DNA from: Acidobacteriota bacterium
GTDB taxonomy: Bacteria; Acidobacteriota; Blastocatellia; Chloracidobacteriales; Chloracidobacteriaceae
Direction of reading: 5' to 3'
DNA: 64,000 nucleotides
Assembly: GCA_016208495.1 (NCBI GenBank)
Contig: JACQXX010000054.1
Coordinates: 1-64,000 of the forward strand
Below, piece by piece: positions 7,617 through 45,649 of the stretch (its first letter is position 1; every line of letters begins with the position of its first letter). Under the pieces are notes generated by a model. The model saw only the letters and a program-made list of their open reading frames with translations, did not search any database and was not told where the DNA came from. The translations under genes and the position numbers were made by a program.

Positions 7617-7955
<339 letters not shown>

Positions 7956-9116
7956 ATGCCACGCACTCGCACCGGTTCAGTTACAACCCGCAAAATCAAA
8001 AACTCAGATGGAACGACACGAGAAGTTGTCATCGCTAGACTCTGTTTCACCGATGCGGACGGCAAATACCACGACTACCAAAAACGAGCGGAAAATAAAA
8101 CGGAAGCCCGACGCATACTGGACAAAATGCGTCGAAGCATCGAAACACATGGGCAACTGCAAATTGATGCTGAACGGATGACCTTTGAACAGTTAGCCCA
8201 GTGGTATGAAAAGAATTATGCTGTTCCTGCCAAATTTGATACCAATGGCCAAAAAGTCCACGGATTGAAGTCTCACAAAGATGTCATACAAAGGCTGCAC
8301 GCTTTACGTGAATACTTTGGTAAAAAGCGTATCCGTTCGATTACTTTCACCGACCTAGAAAACTTCAAACGAAAAAGACTTCAGATCAAAACCTTTCGCG
8401 GGCAAGACCGCAAAATCGCAACCGTCAACCGCGAACTAGCAGTGCTCAGACGGATATTCCGCCTGGCTTTTAACAACCGTTGGCTTTTAGATGACCCGTT
8501 TGATAGGGGAGATAAAGCCTTGATCAGCACAGCGGTTGAAATTCGTCGTGAAAAGCTCATCAACCGCGATGAAGAACGCCAGTTGCTGGCAGCTTGTGTT
8601 GATACACGAGCACATATGCGACCACTAATCATTGCAGCCCTTGATACCGGATGCCGGGAAGGTGAGTTATTGCGGCTGAAATGGGCTGATATTGATTTTG
8701 AAACTCGCACAATTCGTGTCTTGGCTCAAAATTCGAAAACCCTTCGCGCACGTCAAGTCCCTATTTCAACCCGATTGATAGCTGAACTTGAACAACTGCA
8801 CCAAGAAGCCGCTGACAAGCAAAATGGGTTGGTTTTTGGTCGGACCAGTCATGTCAAATGGGCTTGGGATAAAGTGCGTCAAGCCGCTGGATTGCCTGAT
8901 CTTCGGTTCCACGATCTTCGTCATGTTGCCGCTACCAGGCTGGCACAAGGTGGACTTCACCCTTTCCAGGTAGCAGCAATCCTTGGGCACACTGACCCAA
9001 AAACGACTTACCGCTATTTCAATCTTGACCAGGTAACACTTCAAACAGCAAGAAGCGTGCTTGATACACTTCATGGCAAACCAATAGGACTCGGCACAGA
9101 AAGGAAGGACGAATAA
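7956..9116 (+). CDS. int: Tyrosine recombinase (phage-type integrase)
   Basis: Predicted to catalyse integration and excision of the element at the tRNA gene. The 386-residue product has an N-terminal arm-binding and SAM-like region (about 1-170) and a catalytic domain. The domain shows GCREGELLRLKW (Arg near 232), HDLRHVAATRLAQ (near 318) and LGHTDPKTTYRYFN, where the nucleophile is probably Tyr354. The ATG at 7956 follows AAAGGATATGG. It lies about 190 bases inside the left attachment repeat and points into the element, the usual arrangement for tRNA-integrating islands. A second, unrelated recombinase is encoded at 14364-15323; this one is the more likely integrase because of its position. 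Confidence 0.95.
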   Translation: MPRTRTGSVTTRKIKNSDGTTREVVIARLCFTDADGKYHDYQKRAENKTEARRILDKMRRSIETHGQLQIDAERMTFEQLAQWYEKNYAVPAKFDTNGQKVHGLKSHKDVIQRLHALREYFGKKRIRSITFTDLENFKRKRLQIKTFRGQDRKIATVNRELAVLRRIFRLAFNNRWLLDDPFDRGDKALISTAVEIRREKLINRDEERQLLAACVDTRAHMRPLIIAALDTGCREGELLRLKWADIDFETRTIRVLAQNSKTLRARQVPISTRLIAELEQLHQEAADKQNGLVFGRTSHVKWAWDKVRQAAGLPDLRFHDLRHVAATRLAQGGLHPFQVAAILGHTDPKTTYRYFNLDQVTLQTARSVLDTLHGKPIGLGTERKDE

Positions 9117-9549: not shown

Positions 9550-9635
9550 CCTGTTGCCATCTTGTGAGCGGTATTGCCCTTAACCAATACCGCTCTCATC
9601 AACCTTACTGTCAAATGTTACAAAGGAATGATCTC

Positions 9636-10367
9636 GTGGAAACGAATGACAACACTCTAGTCAAAGTAAAGATTGAAATCCTTCTATCAAAAGACAGTCC
9701 TTTTATTGCTATTGAACCCCATCCAACCGAACAAAGTGAAATACCAAACGGAGTTCATCTCAAACTGTCCAAAGCCTATGAAAACAGGGAAACGTTCTCT
9801 TGCAAAGGGATAAATGAAAAATTTGGAGAATTTAGTATTCAACGGGCAACCAGTTTGGAGTGGTGGTTTCAGTTCCGTGGTTACATCTTTCAGGAATTGG
9901 AATTTGATATGGCTAAAGCACTCTTAGACTCTTTAATACGTGCAGCTCGGAATGCTGATTTTCATAGCGGGGAAGATCATAGCCAACAGATTGCCAAATT
10001 AGAGAGGGAGCTTGCGAAACGAAAGAAGTCAAGACACAAAGCTGACATCACCAGGAAACCAGGTCCACACATCCACACAAAACCTTTTTCGCGACGGTTA
10101 ATTGATGCTATCCAAGAAATTGCAAAAGAAACCAAACTCCGTCCCACACAAGAAGCTGTCGCCAAAAAAATGGGATACGCCAGTGCTGTAGTGCTCAGAC
10201 AGATGATTCAACGGAGTGAACCGCCATCTTTCCCTGGGAGCAAAGAACAAAAGCTAACGTGGGCCTCTGCTTTAAAATCTGCAGGTGCTGCCAAATTAAG
10301 CCTTAGAAATCCAAAAAAGACAAAAACCAGAAAAAAGAAGGTCACTAAACTCACATCATCGCAATAA
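9636..10367 (+). CDS. Basic protein of unknown function preceding the origin region
   Basis: About 243 residues if translation starts at the GTG at 9636, which has AAAGGAA eight bases upstream. An ATG at 9615 and a GTG at 9564 in the same frame are alternatives. The middle (IAKLERELAKRKKSRHK) looks like a charged helix. The region RRLIDAIQEIAKETKLRPTQ followed by EAVAKKMGYASAVVLRQMI resembles a helix-turn-helix. The tail is very Lys-rich (PKKTKTRKKKVTKL), which fits DNA binding. Its place directly before the putative origin suggests a role in replication or regulation, but this is inference. Confidence 0.7.
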   Translation: METNDNTLVKVKIEILLSKDSPFIAIEPHPTEQSEIPNGVHLKLSKAYENRETFSCKGINEKFGEFSIQRATSLEWWFQFRGYIFQELEFDMAKALLDSLIRAARNADFHSGEDHSQQIAKLERELAKRKKSRHKADITRKPGPHIHTKPFSRRLIDAIQEIAKETKLRPTQEAVAKKMGYASAVVLRQMIQRSEPPSFPGSKEQKLTWASALKSAGAAKLSLRNPKKTKTRKKKVTKLTSSQ

Positions 10368-10547
10368 CCAAAAATAAACTCACTTTCTTAGAAATCAATG
10401 AGTTAGAGTCAGAAGGCGAAAACAGCAACATATATAAACATAACTGTTACTGTTTTTAAAAAACCAGAAATTCATTAAAGGTATTGCAAAAACAATAGAT
10501 TACTGGTAGCAATTTAACCTTGTTGAACAAGCTTTTACCTAAAAAGA

Positions 10548-10594
10548 AAGTTCGGAGCCACCATAGCCGCCAAGCACACAGTGGCTCCGAACTT
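10548..10594. promoter_or_regulatory. Perfect 14-bp inverted repeat (hairpin)
   Basis: Left arm AAGTTCGGAGCCAC (10548-10561) and right arm GTGGCTCCGAACTT (10581-10594) match perfectly around a 19-base loop. No T-tract follows, so a terminator is unlikely. Its position just before the iterons suggests an origin or operator structure. Confidence 0.75.
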
Positions 10595-10639
10595 CGGTAT
10601 TAACTCTCGGAAAGAGAGCCAGTGCTTATACAGGCATTA

Positions 10640-10720
10640 GCGAGTACAAAGCAGGTACAGGCAAGTACTAGCAGGTACAAGCGAGTACTGGGGCGCACAA
10701 GCACGCACAAGCACGCTCAT
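10640..10720. repeat. Iteron array, eight ten-base units
   Basis: The units are GCGAGTACAA, GCAGGTACAG, GCAAGTACTA, GCAGGTACAA, GCGAGTACTG, GGGCGCACAA, GCACGCACAA and GCACGCTCAT. Spacing is exactly ten bases from 10651 on, about one helical turn, so bound proteins would sit on one face of the DNA. The consensus is close to GCRNGYACAA. The last three units diverge together to GCACAA. The likely ligand is the RepA-like or HTH protein encoded next. Confidence 0.8.
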
Positions 10721-10796: not shown

Positions 10797-11060
10797 ATGA
10801 AAGCCAAAAAAGACAGCCTTATTCCCCAATCGTCTGCGTTGCTACAAGCCGATATTGACAGGCTTTTTGGACAGAGATTGACCATCACTGAAGATGAATT
10901 GTGCCAGGCATTAGGAATTTCCCGTGTCTATAGCTGGATGCTCAGGCGCAAAGGAAAGCTGAAGTTCAGCCGCCAGGGTAAAAATGTAAAATTTACTAAG
11001 GCTCATGTACTTGATTATTTGAACGTGTGTGAATCTGACGCGCAAAGAGAGGTGGCGTGA
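10797..11060 (+). CDS. Small helix-turn-helix protein (excisionase-like)
   Basis: An 87-residue product. The central segment ITEDELCQALGISRVYSWML with RRKGKLKFSRQGKNVKFTK is typical of the MerR/excisionase-type winged HTH. Such proteins bend attachment-site DNA during excision or control replication genes. The ATG at 10797 follows AAAGGTAAG. Its stop codon overlaps the start of the helicase gene (TGATG), so the two are probably translationally coupled. The iterons end 77 bases upstream, so it may also regulate its own promoter. Excisionase and replication regulator cannot be told apart from sequence. Confidence 0.78.
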   Translation: MKAKKDSLIPQSSALLQADIDRLFGQRLTITEDELCQALGISRVYSWMLRRKGKLKFSRQGKNVKFTKAHVLDYLNVCESDAQREVA

Positions 11061-12616
11061 TGCAAGCAAAGCAAAAGCCATCCTCGGGACCGGATGGCTT
11101 CCAAAATAAAATGGAATCAAAAGACACGAGAAACATAGCACAAGGCGCACAGGCCGCCAAGGTGCTTGATTTCGAGGAACAAGCAGCGGATATCAAAGAA
11201 AGGTTACTACGACTTGAACGCATCCACCGAGATAAAGAGTTTCTCACCTCAAAGCTTCTAATGAAGCTGGATGCGGCTCTAAAAGATTACCGAAAACTTG
11301 AAGCTCAAGAATTTGTTAAGAAACATCAGAAAACTGTTTTCGTGCTTGAGCAGGTTGCTGGTAAGGACCGCCTTGAAGGGTATGAAGTAGAATTGGCTCG
11401 CGATATGGCCAAGGATTTCTCAAAAACCACGGGCAGCGCAAGACCGAACTCAAAACCTGCAACTGAAAAAACTAAGCCAGTTCAAGAAAATGCCGGTCCT
11501 CCTGAAATGACTGGGGTCTTCAGAACACTTGATGATTTATTCAGTGCAGATCTTCGCAAGCCTGAAGAAATCCTTTTTCGTGTTCGTCGAGGTAGCCCAC
11601 ATTTGCTGGTTGCGTCAACCAACGTGGGGAAAACCAGTTACATGCTGAATGTGTGTCTCAAGCTGGCAGCCGGTGAGGTATTCCCTCCTCTTGTGGTCAA
11701 TCGGGTGCCCCGTCGTGTGCTTTACCTGGATTTTGAGTCCGAAGCCGATGTAGTTCAAAGTGATTTACAGCGAATGCTTGAAGCAGGAATTTCAGATCAA
11801 GCAACTGCTCGGAAAAACTTTGCTTACTTGACGGAAACAACTCTGGACAGTAAATCCCTTAGTCTGAGTGACCCGCTTCATTGGGATTATGTCGCATTGC
11901 TTGGAAAAGAACTCCAAGTTGATTTGCTCATCATTGACACGCTCGGAGCGGCTTTCCACATTCGCGATGAAAACAGCAATGCCGAGGTAGAACAGAAAGT
12001 GGTTCGCCCTTCGCGTCAACTGGCTCGGACGTTGAATTGTGCCCTGATTTGGATTCACCACATCGGAAAAGCCAATGACACTCTCACTGGTGAAGCTGCG
12101 TACCGAGGACGTGGGGCAAGCGCCTATGGTGCAGGTGCCAGAGCGGTTTTCACTTTGACCAAAGAGGAAACCAAAGGCCCTGGATACGTCACCTTGAGTT
12201 GCGACAAGGCCAAAGGTGAATCATTTGATCCTACCCTTCTCCGGCTGGATTTTGACACTCGCTGGTTTGAACAATGTGCTGAAATTCCGCTGTCTGGTCA
12301 AAGCTCAATCACAGCACAAGAAATTGCCGACTTTGTGGAGCGCAACGAACCCCTGAGAGAAAAAGAAATTATCGAGGCATTTAGAGAAGTAGCTTCCGAA
12401 GCCACAATCAAGAGACGTATTCAGGAAGCATTGCGACTTGGCTTGATTTTGAAGAAATCTCGGGGGATTTATGAAAAGGCTCAAAGGCTCACTCTATATA
12501 GAGATGAGCCTTTGAGCCTTTCTGCTGAACACCACCGAATTCCTGGTTTACCTGACGATTTGGAAGCGAGTGGAATAGACGGGCAACCTGATGACGATGA
12601 CCTGGATGTGATGTGA
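11060..12616 (+). CDS. RepA-like hexameric helicase (AAA_25/RecA-fold ATPase)
   Basis: A 518-residue product likely to unwind the element origin. A helical N-terminus (1-130) is followed by a RecA-fold core with VASTNVGKTS (Walker A near 185-192, first Gly replaced by Ala), YLDFESEADVVQ, LLIIDTLGA (Walker B near 290) and LIWIHHIGKAND. The core resembles RSF1010-type RepA and AAA_25 proteins. A winged-helix-like region follows (EIADFVERNEPLREKEII). The C-terminus is acidic (QPDDDDLDVM), which could serve as a protein docking tail. The last 45 codons contain a 43-base palindrome and are duplicated downstream. The ATG at 11060 overlaps the previous stop; a GTG at 11057 is an alternative. Confidence 0.88.
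   Translation: MQAKQKPSSGPDGFQNKMESKDTRNIAQGAQAAKVLDFEEQAADIKERLLRLERIHRDKEFLTSKLLMKLDAALKDYRKLEAQEFVKKHQKTVFVLEQVAGKDRLEGYEVELARDMAKDFSKTTGSARPNSKPATEKTKPVQENAGPPEMTGVFRTLDDLFSADLRKPEEILFRVRRGSPHLLVASTNVGKTSYMLNVCLKLAAGEVFPPLVVNRVPRRVLYLDFESEADVVQSDLQRMLEAGISDQATARKNFAYLTETTLDSKSLSLSDPLHWDYVALLGKELQVDLLIIDTLGAAFHIRDENSNAEVEQKVVRPSRQLARTLNCALIWIHHIGKANDTLTGEAAYRGRGASAYGAGARAVFTLTKEETKGPGYVTLSCDKAKGESFDPTLLRLDFDTRWFEQCAEIPLSGQSSITAQEIADFVERNEPLREKEIIEAFREVASEATIKRRIQEALRLGLILKKSRGIYEKAQRLTLYRDEPLSLSAEHHRIPGLPDDLEASGIDGQPDDDDLDVM
12477..12519. repeat. 43-base near-perfect palindrome inside the helicase gene
   Basis: The arms run inward from AGGCTCAAAGG to a CTCTATATAGAG centre and back out to CCTTTGAGCCT, with one unpaired base. 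The second copy, 200 bases downstream, keeps the TATA centre but has lost several pairs. It encodes residues around KAQRLTLYRDEPLSL. It could be a recombination or replication site, or a transcription attenuator. Confidence 0.8.
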
Positions 12617-12822
12617 AGATTTATGTCTATCCTTTCAACTGGAAAAATAGGGGTAGTCTTTACGTGCGGGAAATTAAGGGTCAAAGGGTTACTCTATATA
12701 GGGATGAGCCTTTGATCCTTTCTACTGAACACCACCGAATTCCTGGATTACCTGACGATTTGGAAGCGAGTGGAATGGATGGGCAACCTGATGACGATGA
12801 CCTGGATGTGATGTGAGGATTT
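12482..12822. repeat. Direct repeat pair, about 141 bp, offset exactly 200 bases
   Basis: Copy 1 (12482-12622) is the 3' end of the helicase gene; copy 2 (12682-12822) lies just after it. They differ at about a dozen positions. Both encode the tail ending DGQPDDDDLDVM in the same relative frame, and copy 2 is open as part of a separate small gene. Confidence 0.9.
12613..12816 (+). CDS. Small protein carrying a duplicate of the helicase C-terminal tail
   Basis: A possible 67-residue product from a GTG that overlaps the helicase stop (GTGA). The first 20 or so residues are unique; the remainder repeats the helicase tail (YRDEPLILSTEHHRIPG and an acidic PDDDDLDVM end). It may be a decoy or docking peptide for whatever binds the helicase tail, or simply a duplication by-product. 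Most differences between the copies keep the reading frame and the acidic end, which mildly favours a real product. Translation is unproven. Confidence 0.45.
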   Translation: MKIYVYPFNWKNRGSLYVREIKGQRVTLYRDEPLILSTEHHRIPGLPDDLEASGMDGQPDDDDLDVM

Positions 12823-13460: not shown

Positions 13461-13808
13461 ATGCCATTCAATCGCAAGCTGTATCCTTCGAACTGGGAAC
13501 ACATCAGTCACTCTATCCGGTTTGTTCGGGCAGGCGGTCAATGCGAATGGATTGATGATGATGGCAAGCGGTGTGCAGCCCAGCATGGTGAATTGCATCC
13601 GGTCACGGGTAGCAAGGTGGTGCTGACGACGGCACACGTCAACCATACCCCGTCTGACAATCGAGATGAGAACCTGCGGGCGTGGTGTCAGTTTCACCAT
13701 TTGCGCCACGATGCGCGCCACCATGCCGGAAATGCCCGGTTGACCAGGCGGGTCAAGAAAGACAAGCGGCGACCCTTGTTGATGATCAGTGCGGGGAGTC
13801 AGCTATGA
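13461..13808 (+). CDS. HNH endonuclease
   Basis: A 115-residue product with the HNH pattern TTAHVNHTPSDNRDENLRAW followed by CQFHHLRHDARHHAGN. A GGGAGG site precedes the ATG at 13461. HNH nucleases of this size are often encoded near phage terminases, where they assist DNA cleavage for packaging. Here the terminase genes lie about 2 kb downstream, so a packaging role is a reasonable inference. A homing or defence nuclease is the alternative. The next gene starts within its stop codon (ATGA). Confidence 0.88.
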   Translation: MPFNRKLYPSNWEHISHSIRFVRAGGQCEWIDDDGKRCAAQHGELHPVTGSKVVLTTAHVNHTPSDNRDENLRAWCQFHHLRHDARHHAGNARLTRRVKKDKRRPLLMISAGSQL

Positions 13809-14058: not shown

Positions 14059-14370
14059 ATGAATGACCAAATTATTCCATTTCGGCCTTTACCCCATCTT
14101 GACCAACGTTTCCCGGCTACCCGGTTCTGGAATCTGAGCAATGCGGCGTTGTTTGAAGTCTTGAGGGACGTGGAACAGGAACTCACCAGGCGTGTCTTTC
14201 TGAATTTTTGGCCTGACCAGGCACAAGAAAAATTGGTCTGGGTGATAATTTATGCGCTTCGGGTCACACGTTGGGCGTCTTTGCGGGAGTTTGGAAAGAC
14301 ATGGGCTTCTTTGACCACGCTGTTGCTCTTGTTTCGATACAGGCCGGAAGCACCGCCAAAGGATCAATGA
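14059..14370 (+). CDS. Small element protein of unknown function
   Basis: A 103-residue product with GAGGAAG before its ATG, starting MNDQIIPFRPLPHLDQRFPA. It has a helical middle (LFEVLRDVEQELTRRVFLNF) and aromatic, hydrophobic C-terminal half. It follows the docking-like gene by 14 bases in the same operon. Its end overlaps by seven bases the end of the convergently oriented second recombinase gene. No family is recognised. Confidence 0.62.
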   Translation: MNDQIIPFRPLPHLDQRFPATRFWNLSNAALFEVLRDVEQELTRRVFLNFWPDQAQEKLVWVIIYALRVTRWASLREFGKTWASLTTLLLLFRYRPEAPPKDQ

Positions 14371-15323
14371 TGGACATCCTCTTTTTCCAACGTCAGTCCA
14401 AGCACATCACACGGGGCGTGCGTCAGGTTCTGTTGAACGCCAAGGTAGATTTCTGTGGTCTTGATGCTCTCGTGTCCCAAGGTCAGTTGAATCTGATCAA
14501 TGGGGCTTCCGCCTTTGTGAGCGAGTTTGGCAAAGGTGCGGCGAAGATCATGGGGTGTCAGTTTGGACGAAAGGTTTTGCTCGTTGGCGTAGCTGGTGAC
14601 AATGAAATGGATAGCCTGCGATGTCATCGAAGCCCCAATGTTGCCGTGACGATCAATCGAGCGAAACAACACGCCGTCCGTAATGCCAGCATGCTCCGTC
14701 CAGGCATCCACAGCCACTTTGGTCCAGGCCGGAATTGGCACGGTGCGGGTCCGACCACGTTTCCCAGTCAAGTCAGCAATTACCCAACGCCCGTCAAGCT
14801 GGCGAATCATCTCCACTCTCAAGTTGACCAGTTCCGAACGGCGCAAGCCCCCACCCAACGTAATTGCCAAAATTGCCCGGTCACGGAGTCCCTTGCTTTC
14901 CGTTGTGGATGTTTTGGACGGGGTGCTCAACAAAGCCTGTGCATCATCTCTGGTCAACCAGTTGCCGGTTTTGCGGCCTTCGCTCCGAACGCCTTTTACC
15001 CGGTGAATGGCTTCCGCATTCTGAAAATTAAGCAGATGGTTGTCAGCGGCCTCGGTCACGAGCTTTTTGATAGCGGACAAACGTTGGTTGATATTGGCGG
15101 GGGAAAGCTTGGCTTCCCTCAGTTCAGCCACGTAAGCGGCGACCACCGACTTTTGCAACGGCGGCGCGCCTTGGGTTTGATACCAGTCCAGGAAGTCAGA
15201 AAGCGCACGGGTATAGGCACGGCAAGTGTGCTCAGACGACAGGGTATCTGTGACGAGCTTAATCAAGGCATCTTTGGGGGTGGACGCTTCGTCGGTAGGG
15301 CGGCTCAAAACCAGGTTTGTCAT
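14364..15323 (-). CDS. Second tyrosine recombinase (XerC/D-like)
   Basis: A 319-residue product with a core-binding domain (about 18-105, SSEHTCRAYTRALSDFLDWY) and a catalytic domain. The domain shows GGGLRRSELVNL (Arg161), HDLRRTFAKLAH (258-269), LGHESIKTTEIYLG (His284, Tyr293). All catalytic residues are present, so it should be active. The start has GAGG upstream. It is the only large gene on the minus strand in the element and divides the replication part from the terminase part. It could resolve multimers, invert a segment, or derive from an older insertion. Confidence 0.92.
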   Translation of the reverse strand: MTNLVLSRPTDEASTPKDALIKLVTDTLSSEHTCRAYTRALSDFLDWYQTQGAPPLQKSVVAAYVAELREAKLSPANINQRLSAIKKLVTEAADNHLLNFQNAEAIHRVKGVRSEGRKTGNWLTRDDAQALLSTPSKTSTTESKGLRDRAILAITLGGGLRRSELVNLRVEMIRQLDGRWVIADLTGKRGRTRTVPIPAWTKVAVDAWTEHAGITDGVLFRSIDRHGNIGASMTSQAIHFIVTSYANEQNLSSKLTPHDLRRTFAKLAHKGGSPIDQIQLTLGHESIKTTEIYLGVQQNLTHAPCDVLGLTLEKEDVHH

Positions 15324-15493
15324 GGGGCCTCTTTTATTTCTAACTACTCATAACTACCATTATCATAAGTCAGAATAACCAAAATAACGGAACACCACAA
15401 GCCGTTTCGGAACGGGGTTTGAGCCTGATTCGAACCGTCATTTTCAGCAAGGGCATAACCTGTTCACTCGAAAAAAGAAAAGCGCTAAAAGCC

Positions 15494-15973
15494 ATGCCAC
15501 GACCATGCACAATCTGTGTTCATCAAAAACGAGAAGAAATTGACCGGATGCTGATTGAAGGGGTGTCGTTACGGAACATTGCGGAACATTCCGGAACAAG
15601 CCCCCAAGCCCTTTTACGGCACAAAGACCACATCGCGGCAGCACTGATCAGAGCCAAAGACGTCCAGGAAGTCATCCAGGCAGACACCTTGCTTGACCGA
15701 CTTCAGGCATTGAACCAGGAAACCAGAGACATCCTAAAGGCAGCGAAAGCGGATGACGACCCACATCTGGCATTGAAGGCCATTGCGCGTGCCGAAAAGC
15801 AACTTGAGTTGGAAGCCCGGTTATTAGGCGAGTTGAACGACCAGACAACCGTCAACATTCTGGTTGCTCCTGAATGGCTCGCGGTGCGTGCCGCCATTCT
15901 TGAGGCACTCGGACCCTTTCCAGACGCCCGTGCTCAGGTGGCGGCGCGTCTGATGCTTTTGGAGACCCGTTGA
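15494..15973 (+). CDS. Small-terminase-like DNA-binding protein
   Basis: About 159 residues from MPRPCTICVHQKREEID; the frame is open upstream to a weaker TTG at 15419. It has a CxxC near the start, a helix-turn-helix (GVSLRNIAEHSGTSPQALLR), a long charged helical region, and a conserved-looking end (VNILVAPEWLAVRAAILEAL). The architecture (HTH, then coiled coil, directly before TerL) matches small terminase subunits, which recognise packaging sites. Its stop overlaps the ATPase start (TGATG). The functional call rests mainly on architecture and position. Confidence 0.7.
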   Translation: MPRPCTICVHQKREEIDRMLIEGVSLRNIAEHSGTSPQALLRHKDHIAAALIRAKDVQEVIQADTLLDRLQALNQETRDILKAAKADDDPHLALKAIARAEKQLELEARLLGELNDQTTVNILVAPEWLAVRAAILEALGPFPDARAQVAARLMLLETR

Positions 15974-16737
15974 TGATTGCGAGTGATTTAGCGATGGCGC
16001 TTGACCCGTTGTTGTTCGCCCGGTGCTCTGGATTCCATCCGGATATCTGGCAAGCCGATTTGTTGTGCTCGCCTTCACCCCAAAACATCTTGCTGTGTAG
16101 CAGGCAAGCCGGAAAGAGCACCGTCACGTCATTTTTGGCATTGCACCAGGCGCTGTTCTATCCCCGTTCGCTCATCCTGCTTTTGGCTCCGGCTGAACGC
16201 CAATCCAAAGAACTGTTCAATGACAAGCTGAAACGACAGTACCAGCGACTCAGCGAGAATGTCCCGGTGGTGAAGGCCCGTCAGGAATCGGCGCTGGAAA
16301 TGGCCTTCAACAACGGAAGCCGGATATGTGCGCTTCCGGGCAAAGAAGCCACAATCAGAGGGTTTTCGAGTGTCAACTTGCTGGTTGTGGATGAAGCGTC
16401 CCGCGTGCCGGATGACCTCTACCGTGCCGTTCGCCCAATGTTGGCAGTCAGTCAAGGACGGCTGGTGTTGCTGTCCACCCCCTATGGCAAACGCGGGTTT
16501 TTCCATGAGGAATGGTCCAACGGCGGACCGAACTGGAAACGAGTCAAGGTCACGGCGGAACAATGCCCGCGCATCAGCAAGGAGTTTCTGGAATCCGAAC
16601 GCAAAGCTTTAGGTGACCGTGACTTCCGGCAAGAGTACCTGTGCTCCTTCGAAGAAACCCTGGATTCCGTCTTTTCCTACGAAGCCATTCAGGCGGTGCT
16701 GGATACCAGCGTCAAGCCTTTGTGGAGTGAATCATGA
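15973..16737 (+). CDS. Large terminase, ATPase half
   Basis: A 254-residue product with the terminase motor signature: SRQAGKST (Walker A, about 43-50), a strand-helix section (LLAPAERQSKELF), LLVVDEASRVPDDLYRAV (Walker B with catalytic Glu, about 136-153) and LLSTPYGKRGFFHEEW (coupling motif). It ends in a linker (FRQEYLCSFEETLDSVFSYE) that normally leads into the nuclease domain of the same polypeptide. Here an in-frame stop intervenes and the nuclease is encoded by the next gene with a four-base overlap. It would power DNA translocation into a capsid. Confidence 0.9.
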   Translation: MIASDLAMALDPLLFARCSGFHPDIWQADLLCSPSPQNILLCSRQAGKSTVTSFLALHQALFYPRSLILLLAPAERQSKELFNDKLKRQYQRLSENVPVVKARQESALEMAFNNGSRICALPGKEATIRGFSSVNLLVVDEASRVPDDLYRAVRPMLAVSQGRLVLLSTPYGKRGFFHEEWSNGGPNWKRVKVTAEQCPRISKEFLESERKALGDRDFRQEYLCSFEETLDSVFSYEAIQAVLDTSVKPLWSES

Positions 16738-17462
16738 CTTTTCAAACCCTGTGGAACGGGTGTCTCGATGCGTGGGCATATGTGACCCGTTCCCCACTAC
16801 GGAGACGACCTATGAGCTTATGGCATTCTGACCCTCCTCAGTTCTTCCTTGGGCTTGACCTTGGGCAGAGCAAAGACTACACGGCCCTGACGATCATTGA
16901 ACGGATTGAAACCAACGGGGGTGATGTTGTTGTCCAACAAGTCCGCCACTTGCAGCGATGGAAACTCCGGACGAGTTACCCCACCATCGTGCGGGAAGTC
17001 ACCGCGATGCTGAACCAGCCGCCGTTACGTCATGCTGACACCACCCTTGCGATTGACGGCACGGGCGTTGGTCGCCCGGTGGTGGATTTGTTCTGGAACG
17101 TCAAGACAGACGCCCTCATCAGACCGGTTCAGATTGTGGCTGGCAGCAAGGAATCTCACAACGACGGCTTTTACCACGTTCCCAAGCGGGAACTGGTGTC
17201 ACTGGTGCAAGTGGCGTTGCAAACTCGACAGTTACGGATTGCGGCTGAATTGCCCGAAGCGGAAGTACTGGTCAAGGAATTGATCAATTTTCAGGTGAAA
17301 ATAACGGACGCCGCGAATGACACTTACGGCGCATGGCGCGAAGGCCAGCACGACGACCTGGTATTGGCAACGGCTCTGGCATTGTGGGCTAGTGAAAAGG
17401 GCGGCGGGCGCGCCGAACACGGACCTTCGTTAGATGCGTTAGTTAACAACCGGTGGGGATGA
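16734..17462 (+). CDS. Large terminase, RNase-H-like nuclease half
   Basis: A product of up to 242 residues with the terminase nuclease pattern: FFLGLDLGQSKDYTAL (first Asp near 41), AIDGTGVGRPVVDLFW (second acidic site near 107) and HDDLVLATALALW (third site near 207). The ATG at 16734 overlaps the ATPase stop (ATGA), but an ATG at 16812 with GGAG upstream starts right at the conserved domain and is an alternative. Split terminases need the two chains to associate. It is the last rightward gene of the element; no portal or capsid gene follows. Confidence 0.9.
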   Translation: MTFQTLWNGCLDAWAYVTRSPLRRRPMSLWHSDPPQFFLGLDLGQSKDYTALTIIERIETNGGDVVVQQVRHLQRWKLRTSYPTIVREVTAMLNQPPLRHADTTLAIDGTGVGRPVVDLFWNVKTDALIRPVQIVAGSKESHNDGFYHVPKRELVSLVQVALQTRQLRIAAELPEAEVLVKELINFQVKITDAANDTYGAWREGQHDDLVLATALALWASEKGGGRAEHGPSLDALVNNRWG

Positions 17463-18251: not shown

Positions 18252-18325
<74 letters not shown>

Positions 18326-19256: not shown

Positions 19257-19647
19257 AAGTTTTTCTGCCTCACGAAACCGGAATCTCAATGTTGTGTGAT
19301 TTTTTTGGAAGAACTCAGGAGTGTTCGGTTGCGAAACGCTTTGACAGTAGCAGTGAGTTCCAAAAATCAGGCGGAAGAAGTCGGGCGGAAGACATTGGGC
19401 TGGGGGCTGAAGACTTCGGGCTGAAGAAGTTGGTTTTAGGGAGTCGGATGGAAATATCATACCACCAGGGTTCAGGGTTCAGGGTTCAGGGTTCAGGGTT
19501 CAGGGCCAGATACTCCACGTTGAGTGGTACCCGCCAGTTCCCCAGTCTTCATCTTGAGTGGGATCAGTCAACTCATGAGTCTTCAGCCCCAAGCCCGTCT
19601 TCTTCAGCCCATCTTCTTCAGCCCGATGTCTTCAGCCCAAGGATTTT
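19257..19647. repeat. Gene-free region with nested inverted heptamer element (copy A)
   Basis: Outer arms rich in GGGCTGAAGA (about 19370-19438) and the complement TCTTCAGCCC (about 19580-19640) bracket an inner element. The inner element starts GGGAGTCGGATGGAAATATC at 19439, has about five TTCAGGG units (19468-19505), and continues with a core that shares CTTGAG-type words with the copy at 45952. It sits between the convergent YIP1-promoter side and the end of tldD. Confidence 0.8.
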
Positions 19648-29506: not shown

Positions 29507-29579
29507 CGCCAGATGAGGGACCAGGCCAGATCAAAGGACATAAAGGACATAAGGGATCAAAAGGACTAAAAATTCGAAA

Positions 29580-29673
29580 CCCTGAACCCTGAACCCTGAA
29601 CCCTGAACCCTGAACCCTGAACCCTGAACCCTGAACCCTGAACCCTGAACCCTGAACCCTGAACCCTGAACCC
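29580..29673. repeat. Perfect CCCTGAA heptamer array, 13 units
   Basis: Thirteen identical seven-base units (29580-29670) and a partial unit form the longest perfect array in the window. On this strand every frame has a TGA every seven codons; on the other strand it is fully open. It ends five bases before the ATG of the acetyltransferase gene. The preceding bases (29531-29570) hold nine-base AAAGGACAT-type units. Confidence 0.97.
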
Positions 29674-45552: not shown

Positions 45553-45649
45553 AGAAAGTGGTTAGTGGGTAGTGGGTAGTGGTTAGTGGTTAGTGGTTAG
45601 TGGTTAGTGGTTAGTGGTTAGTGGTTAGTGGTTAGTGGTTAGTGGTTAG
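45553..45649. repeat. TTAGTGG heptamer array
   Basis: About 13 units of AGTGGTT/AGTGGGT run uninterrupted from the end of feoB. The reverse-complement family (TAACCAC) returns at 45921-45950 and 46155-46180, so the Cys-rich gene lies inside an inverted pair. Confidence 0.95.

Follow-up and report, generated by a model that had tools for sequence, protein, structure and literature searches.

The replicon of the IncQ plasmid RSF1010 comprises iterons, the RepA helicase and ssi hairpins, and the iterons of IncQ plasmids are about 20 bp long. The origins of PICIs have been described as two iteron sets that flank an AT-rich core 3' of rep, and the AlpA protein of a Gram-negative PICI activates its own promoter (PMC6092414). 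BldC, a protein of the HTH_17 family, binds direct repeats head-to-tail and recognizes, at smeA-sffA, four regularly spaced tracts located one helical turn apart (PMC5859096). RdfS, which shows HTH_17 similarity to BldC and Xis, binds its own promoter and attP (PMC11963761) and has been proposed to line up on DNA like BldC.

The window analysed here, i.e. the whole 64-kb stretch of DNA, belongs to contig 54 of an 8.4-Mb genome and carries a 10.5-kb mobile element (10,527 bp) integrated in a tRNA-Met gene and bordered by a 45-bp perfect direct repeat (7725-7769 / 18252-18296). Its genes encode, in this order, an integrase, two proteins devoid of convincing family matches, an HTH_17 protein, an AAA_25 helicase, an HNH endonuclease, a recombinase on the minus strand, a TerS-like protein and a TerL split in two genes. 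The features are as follows:

7725-7769, unstranded: left att repeat, copy of the 3' part of tRNA-Met (45-bp perfect repeat of 18252-18296)
7956-9116, plus strand: tyrosine integrase (PF00589, E=6e-28; phrog_1, E=1e-60)
10430-10549, unstranded: 120-bp segment with the lowest GC content in the element, 25% (GC scan)
10548-10594, unstranded: perfect hairpin, 14-bp stem, 19-nt loop (inverted-repeat search; DNA fold z=-6.8)
10639-10719, plus strand: array of eight decamers of GCRNGTACW type, the final three with GCAC, GCAC and GCTC (period-10 score, unit scan)
10797-11060, plus strand: HTH_17/excisionase-family wHTH protein, 87 aa, proposed array binder (PF12728, E=2.8e-6; TIGR01764, E=1e-5, below cut-off)
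11057-12616, plus strand: RSF1010-RepA-like hexameric helicase (PF13481, E=6e-26; PDB 1g8y, E=2e-12; model and Foldseek)
12475-12521, unstranded: origin-like inverted iterons AAAGGCTCAAAGGCTCA / TGAGCCTTTGAGCCTTT around CTCTATATAGAGA, with a TATATAG core (inverted-repeat search, fold)
12676-12822, unstranded: diverged copy (93%) of 12476-12622, in which the inverted iterons are weaker (repeat search)
13461-13808, plus strand: HNH endonuclease (phrog_1571, E=4e-31)
15419-15973, plus strand: terminase small subunit-like protein (position; homology to the ORF preceding TerL in L012 and L013)
15970-16737, plus strand: terminase large subunit, ATPase half (phrog_7579, E=4e-62)
16734-17462, plus strand: terminase large subunit, nuclease half (phrog_27743, unnamed, E=2e-47; phrog_5909, TerL, E=8e-7)
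18252-18296, unstranded: right att repeat, within the intact tRNA-Met gene (tRNA and repeat detection)

Three minor features accompany this organization. The minus-strand recombinase (14364-15323, between the HNH and TerS genes) is a second tyrosine recombinase with a SAM-like N-terminal domain, and a perfect 11-bp inverted repeat (9566-9595) is found at the beginning of ORF 9564-10367. The host part of the window is rich in heptanucleotide tandem repeats (AACCCTG, AGTGGTT, CAGGGTT and others), for example at 29578-29673, 45557-45649 and 19466-19505.

Like Gram-negative PICIs, the element displays an integrase at one end with a specific att site, followed by a small HTH regulator, a replication gene whose 3' end carries inverted iterons around an AT-rich core, and terS; no capsid gene was found among the element proteins scanned. 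However, it encodes an HTH_17 protein and no recognised AlpA, its large terminase is split, and its helicase does not include the primase domain of a pri-rep protein. Indeed, no primase domain was detected in the helicase by Pfam or in its model, and its PHROG matches to primase/helicase families cover the helicase part. Like RSF1010, the element has iterons, hairpins and a RepA-type hexameric helicase with a RecA-fold core. RSF1010 RepA is the closest PDB entry of this helicase by sequence (1g8y, E=2e-12) and provides the best Foldseek matches (TMt 0.75-0.80) of its AlphaFold2 model (mean pLDDT 70, core well predicted). By contrast with RSF1010, there is no recognised RepC or RepB, the repeats are only 8–10 bp long, and the helicase is extended by long helices at its N-terminus and by a winged helix at its C-terminus (residues 419-473). 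No close relative of this helicase was found in plasmids, phages, or viral and genome contigs, the contigs being searched with a single-sequence query. The element shares with BldC, RdfS and Xis the HTH_17/excisionase family, direct repeats about one turn apart and, as for RdfS, a site upstream of the regulator's own gene, but it has eight GTAC-core decamers, whereas the known BldC sites include two to four repeats of 9 bp and RdfS has no clear consensus. It differs from pRN1, whose protein is of the prim-pol/SF3 type and whose stem-loop of 100 nt contains no iterons (PMC4234260).

The decamer array and its surroundings

The array consists, as stated in the initial annotation, of eight decamers: AGCGAGTACA (10639), AGCAGGTACA (10650), GGCAAGTACT (10660), AGCAGGTACA again (10670), AGCGAGTACT (10680), GGGGCGCACA (10690), AGCACGCACA (10700) and AGCACGCTCA (10710). 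Its period-10 score (42/60) is the highest of the 64-kb window, 1000 Markov simulations of the element giving at most 34. The spacing, previously described as strictly ten bases, begins with a step of 11 followed by six steps of 10. The core is GTAC in five of the eight units, GCAC in two and GCTC in one; the last three units had been said to change together to GCACAA, and their cores do change, the eighth unit reading GCTCAT. This change is the basis of the initial suggestion that two half-arrays may differ in their affinity for protein. Units 2-5 form a 20-bp higher-order repeat (two blocks 90% identical), and the final 23 bp are perfect 10-bp repeats. Positions 2, 6 and 9 of the decamer (G, G, C) are constant between units while the other positions vary. 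The lattice GC-NN-GTAC-NN-GC is partly its own reverse complement, a self-complementarity equalled in 7 of 2000 shuffles. No second array of this motif is found anywhere in the element, and, across the phylum sample, an exact three-unit GC-NN-GTAC-NN match is restricted to the window, the ~395 other genomes having none. An RNA reading was rejected: no Rfam family was detected at the array, and on its own the array folds modestly as RNA (z=-2.8).

As initially annotated, the array lies between a perfect hairpin, which stops 44 bp upstream, and the HTH-helicase operon, in which the start of the helicase gene overlaps the HTH stop. An AT-rich region of melting type (10430-10549) and the minimum of the cumulative GC skew (10850; block-shuffle p about 0.06, weak) adjoin the array. 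In-phase tandem direct repeats next to such a region are features of an iteron origin; repeats one helical turn apart (10 bp, first step 11) with an HTH_17 gene beside them, here 78 bp downstream, are features of an operator bound by an HTH_17 filament. No sigma-70-like promoter was detected between the array and the HTH gene, and the promoters of this phylum may differ.

Relatives of the helicase and the inverted iterons at its 3' end

The relatives of the helicase belong to the same class, plus one viral contig, and are distant (30–42% identical). Several of them also carry an HTH gene, and L010 retains the integrase - HTH - helicase order. The initial annotation implied that homologous elements keep the array along with the helicase. 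This is not what was found: no comparable array with a period of 9 to 12 lies up- or downstream of the helicase in the relatives scanned (L010, L011, L012, L014, L019-L025 and L065), all of them distant. In the nearest syntenic relative (L010/L064), the HTH protein shares 37% identity with that of the window, yet the DNA upstream carries no comparable array.

Another origin-like structure is present at 12475-12521, within the 3' end of the helicase coding sequence and just past the winged helix, a placement also observed in L065. At 17 bp, against 12 reached in 15 simulations, it exceeds every other perfect inverted repeat of the element, and it is strongly folded (z=-8.6). By the shape of its sequence, it corresponds to the PICI arrangement, in which an AT-rich core 3' of rep lies between two sets of iterons, here inside the coding end of rep. 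Seven related helicase genes, including that of the window, display inverted repeats of 8–10 bp at or just past their end. The counterpart of L025 is AAGTGGCTCAGTGGCTC...TATATAGGGAT...GAGCCACTGAGCCACTT, 3' of the helicase gene; the cores are TTATAGGGGG in L014, TTATAGGG in L019 and CTATAAC in L011; L065 has a 23-bp stem around CTATAG, and L010 a weaker stem with AATAG. TATA occurs in the core at six of the seven loci, far above chance given the TATA frequency of the window, for a motif that was noticed first and tested afterwards. No such element was found at the more distant helicases L012, L020, L023 and L024, and the L022 helicase has a hairpin without a TATA core. The exact 17-mer CTATATAGGGATGAGCC has matches in two unrelated viral contigs, without helicase match there, which is as chance allows. 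Judging from these sequence features, replication would be likelier to start at this previously overlooked inverted-iteron hairpin, where the helicase gene ends, than at the array.

A 147-bp partial duplication gives the window a second, degraded copy of the inverted iterons.

One-turn GTAC arrays in viral contigs

Spacing of GTAC cores by one turn had been considered uncommon. In fact, arrays of four GTAC at 10-bp spacing are recurrent: at least 119 usable loci were found in viral contigs, so that this format is common in phages, and the control of same composition (four CATG) yielded 90 over the entire viral collection. Exact spacing is not diagnostic by itself, because GTAC at 11-bp spacing is also abundant among the matches listed.

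Among these matches, AAA helicases lie near 42 of the 119 GTAC loci and near none of the 80 control loci. This raw count was not taken at face value, because the large neighbours in the Pfam tally against the control also include terminases, portals and integrases, so that replication is not singled out, and because the 42 helicases represent only four protein clusters (three with an unbiased profile); the profile behind the count was itself trained partly on these loci. In two phage types (L180 and L160), GTAC decamers and perfect hairpins are located directly 3' of AAA_25 helicase genes. The stem of the L180-type hairpin varies with compensation (GAACGTGTC/GACACGTTC, GAACGTATC/GATACGTTC, GGGTGTCC/GGACACCC). 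As decamers with a compensating hairpin adjoin the helicase gene, an origin role is plausible for the decamers of L180-type phages.

The distance to HTH_17 genes was compared in viral loci picked by the GTAC pattern alone. All four HTH_17 ORFs of the 10-bp-array loci (L140, L156, L221 and L074) lie 0-41 bp from the array among the matches listed, versus one of six within 300 bp of the pattern in the CATG control. HTH_17 accounts for 3/77 small neighbours in the Pfam tally (control, 0/75), and most GTAC arrays have other neighbours. L156 shows the same layout as the window (array - HTH_17 - primase/helicase), and L108 the same change from GTAC to GCAC in its final units. The commonest small neighbour of one-turn GTAC arrays is Terminase_2 (6/77 versus 0/75 in the control, among the matches listed).

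GTAC decamer arrays located a few to ~120 bp upstream of Terminase_2 genes (5 bp in L217, 55 bp in L113, also L223) are candidate packaging sites.

Possible roles of the array

The leading reading, to which a probability of about 0.5 can be given, is that the array serves as a multiple operator to which the HTH_17 protein encoded by the element would bind, ahead of the HTH-helicase operon. It leads because of BldC/RdfS-type binding, AlpA autoactivation and the existence of a separate origin candidate 3' of the helicase. HTH_17 monomers would each occupy one decamer, all on one face of the DNA, head to tail and spaced by one helix turn, and a short filament would assemble ahead of the operon. 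This filament would switch the operon by activation or repression, i.e. autoregulation. Replication would begin elsewhere, the RepA-like helicase being loaded where inverted iterons enclose the TATATAG core (12475-12521). One turn per unit suits a wHTH monomer of ~50 residues, the protein encoded beside the array matches the HTH_17 family, the HTH_17 genes of viral loci lie close to their 10-bp arrays, with the layout of the window repeated in L156, and relatives that are devoid of the array nevertheless retain the helicase with inverted iterons 3' of it. Against an operator stand the missing array upstream of the L010/L064 HTH gene, the failure to detect a sigma-70-like promoter between array and HTH gene, the few (four) HTH_17 neighbours among the matches listed and the other neighbours of most GTAC arrays. 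So do the decamers flanking hairpins beside AAA_25 helicases, which favour an origin role in those two phage families.

If the operator reading is correct, it would be wrong to call short repeats ahead of such operons origins as a matter of course, a better origin candidate would be available, with a shape recognisable in distant relatives, and the phased array would provide a clean system for studying the assembly of small HTH_17 proteins on DNA. As GTAC decamers are widespread in viral contigs, the question of array recognition is a general one and easy to test in vitro. A broader proposal, still tentative and rather doubtful, holds that one-turn GTAC decamer arrays are, in phages and their relatives, a convergent format read by several unrelated oligomeric HTH proteins (HTH_17 filaments, small-terminase rings, helicase winged helices), and that this helicase family has a recognisable 3'-end origin, made of inverted 8–10 bp iterons around a TATAG core and sometimes included in the coding sequence.

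The initial annotation regarded the array as origin iterons. The array, the hairpin and the AT-rich stretch would then form the origin, to which either the HTH protein or the C-terminal winged helix of the helicase would bind in an RSF1010-like manner. The hairpin, the HTH protein, the RepA-like helicase, the lowest-GC segment and the weak skew minimum are indeed present, and the AAA helicases near viral GTAC arrays, above all the L180- and L160-type arrangements, point the same way. However, the window's array precedes the HTH gene, the position occupied in relatives, towards the 3' end of the helicase gene, is filled by a separate inverted-iteron hairpin, and the relatives are devoid of the array. 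This origin role, weakened because of these observations and because GTAC arrays are common beside terminase, HTH_17 and helicase genes alike, is now considered unlikely. It is improbable that the array has no function at all and results from a young tandem duplication of a 10/20-bp unit: its 90% identical 20-bp blocks and perfect final repeats are what slippage would leave, and it is not conserved in relatives, but G, G and C persist at positions 2, 6 and 9 while others vary, and the array precedes an HTH gene, as GTAC decamers do in unrelated phages beside HTH_17 genes.

Two further roles would involve other DNA transactions of the element. As an arm-type site controlling recombination directionality, the array would be bound by the HTH protein acting as an excisionase; this protein matches excisionase families and RdfS binds attP as well as its own promoter, but 2.9 kb separate the array from the nearest att repeat and neither att site has a similar array nearby, which makes this role very improbable. 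A packaging (pac/cos) site, recognized by HTH domains around a TerS ring, would fit with the frequency of Terminase_2 genes next to one-turn GTAC arrays, sometimes within 5 or 55 bp, and with the presence of both TerS and TerL in the element. Nevertheless, the terS gene is 4.7 kb from the array and TerS HTH domains have shown little sequence specificity in binding where they have been examined (SF6; PMC4737164), so packaging is a quite improbable function.

The terminase genes have homologues in L012 (G046:C36) and L013 (G046:C313), where the TerS, TerL ATPase and TerL nuclease genes are found in the same order, with an integrase near each set. From their sequences, these loci and the window's element possibly represent a family of small elements with their own split terminase.
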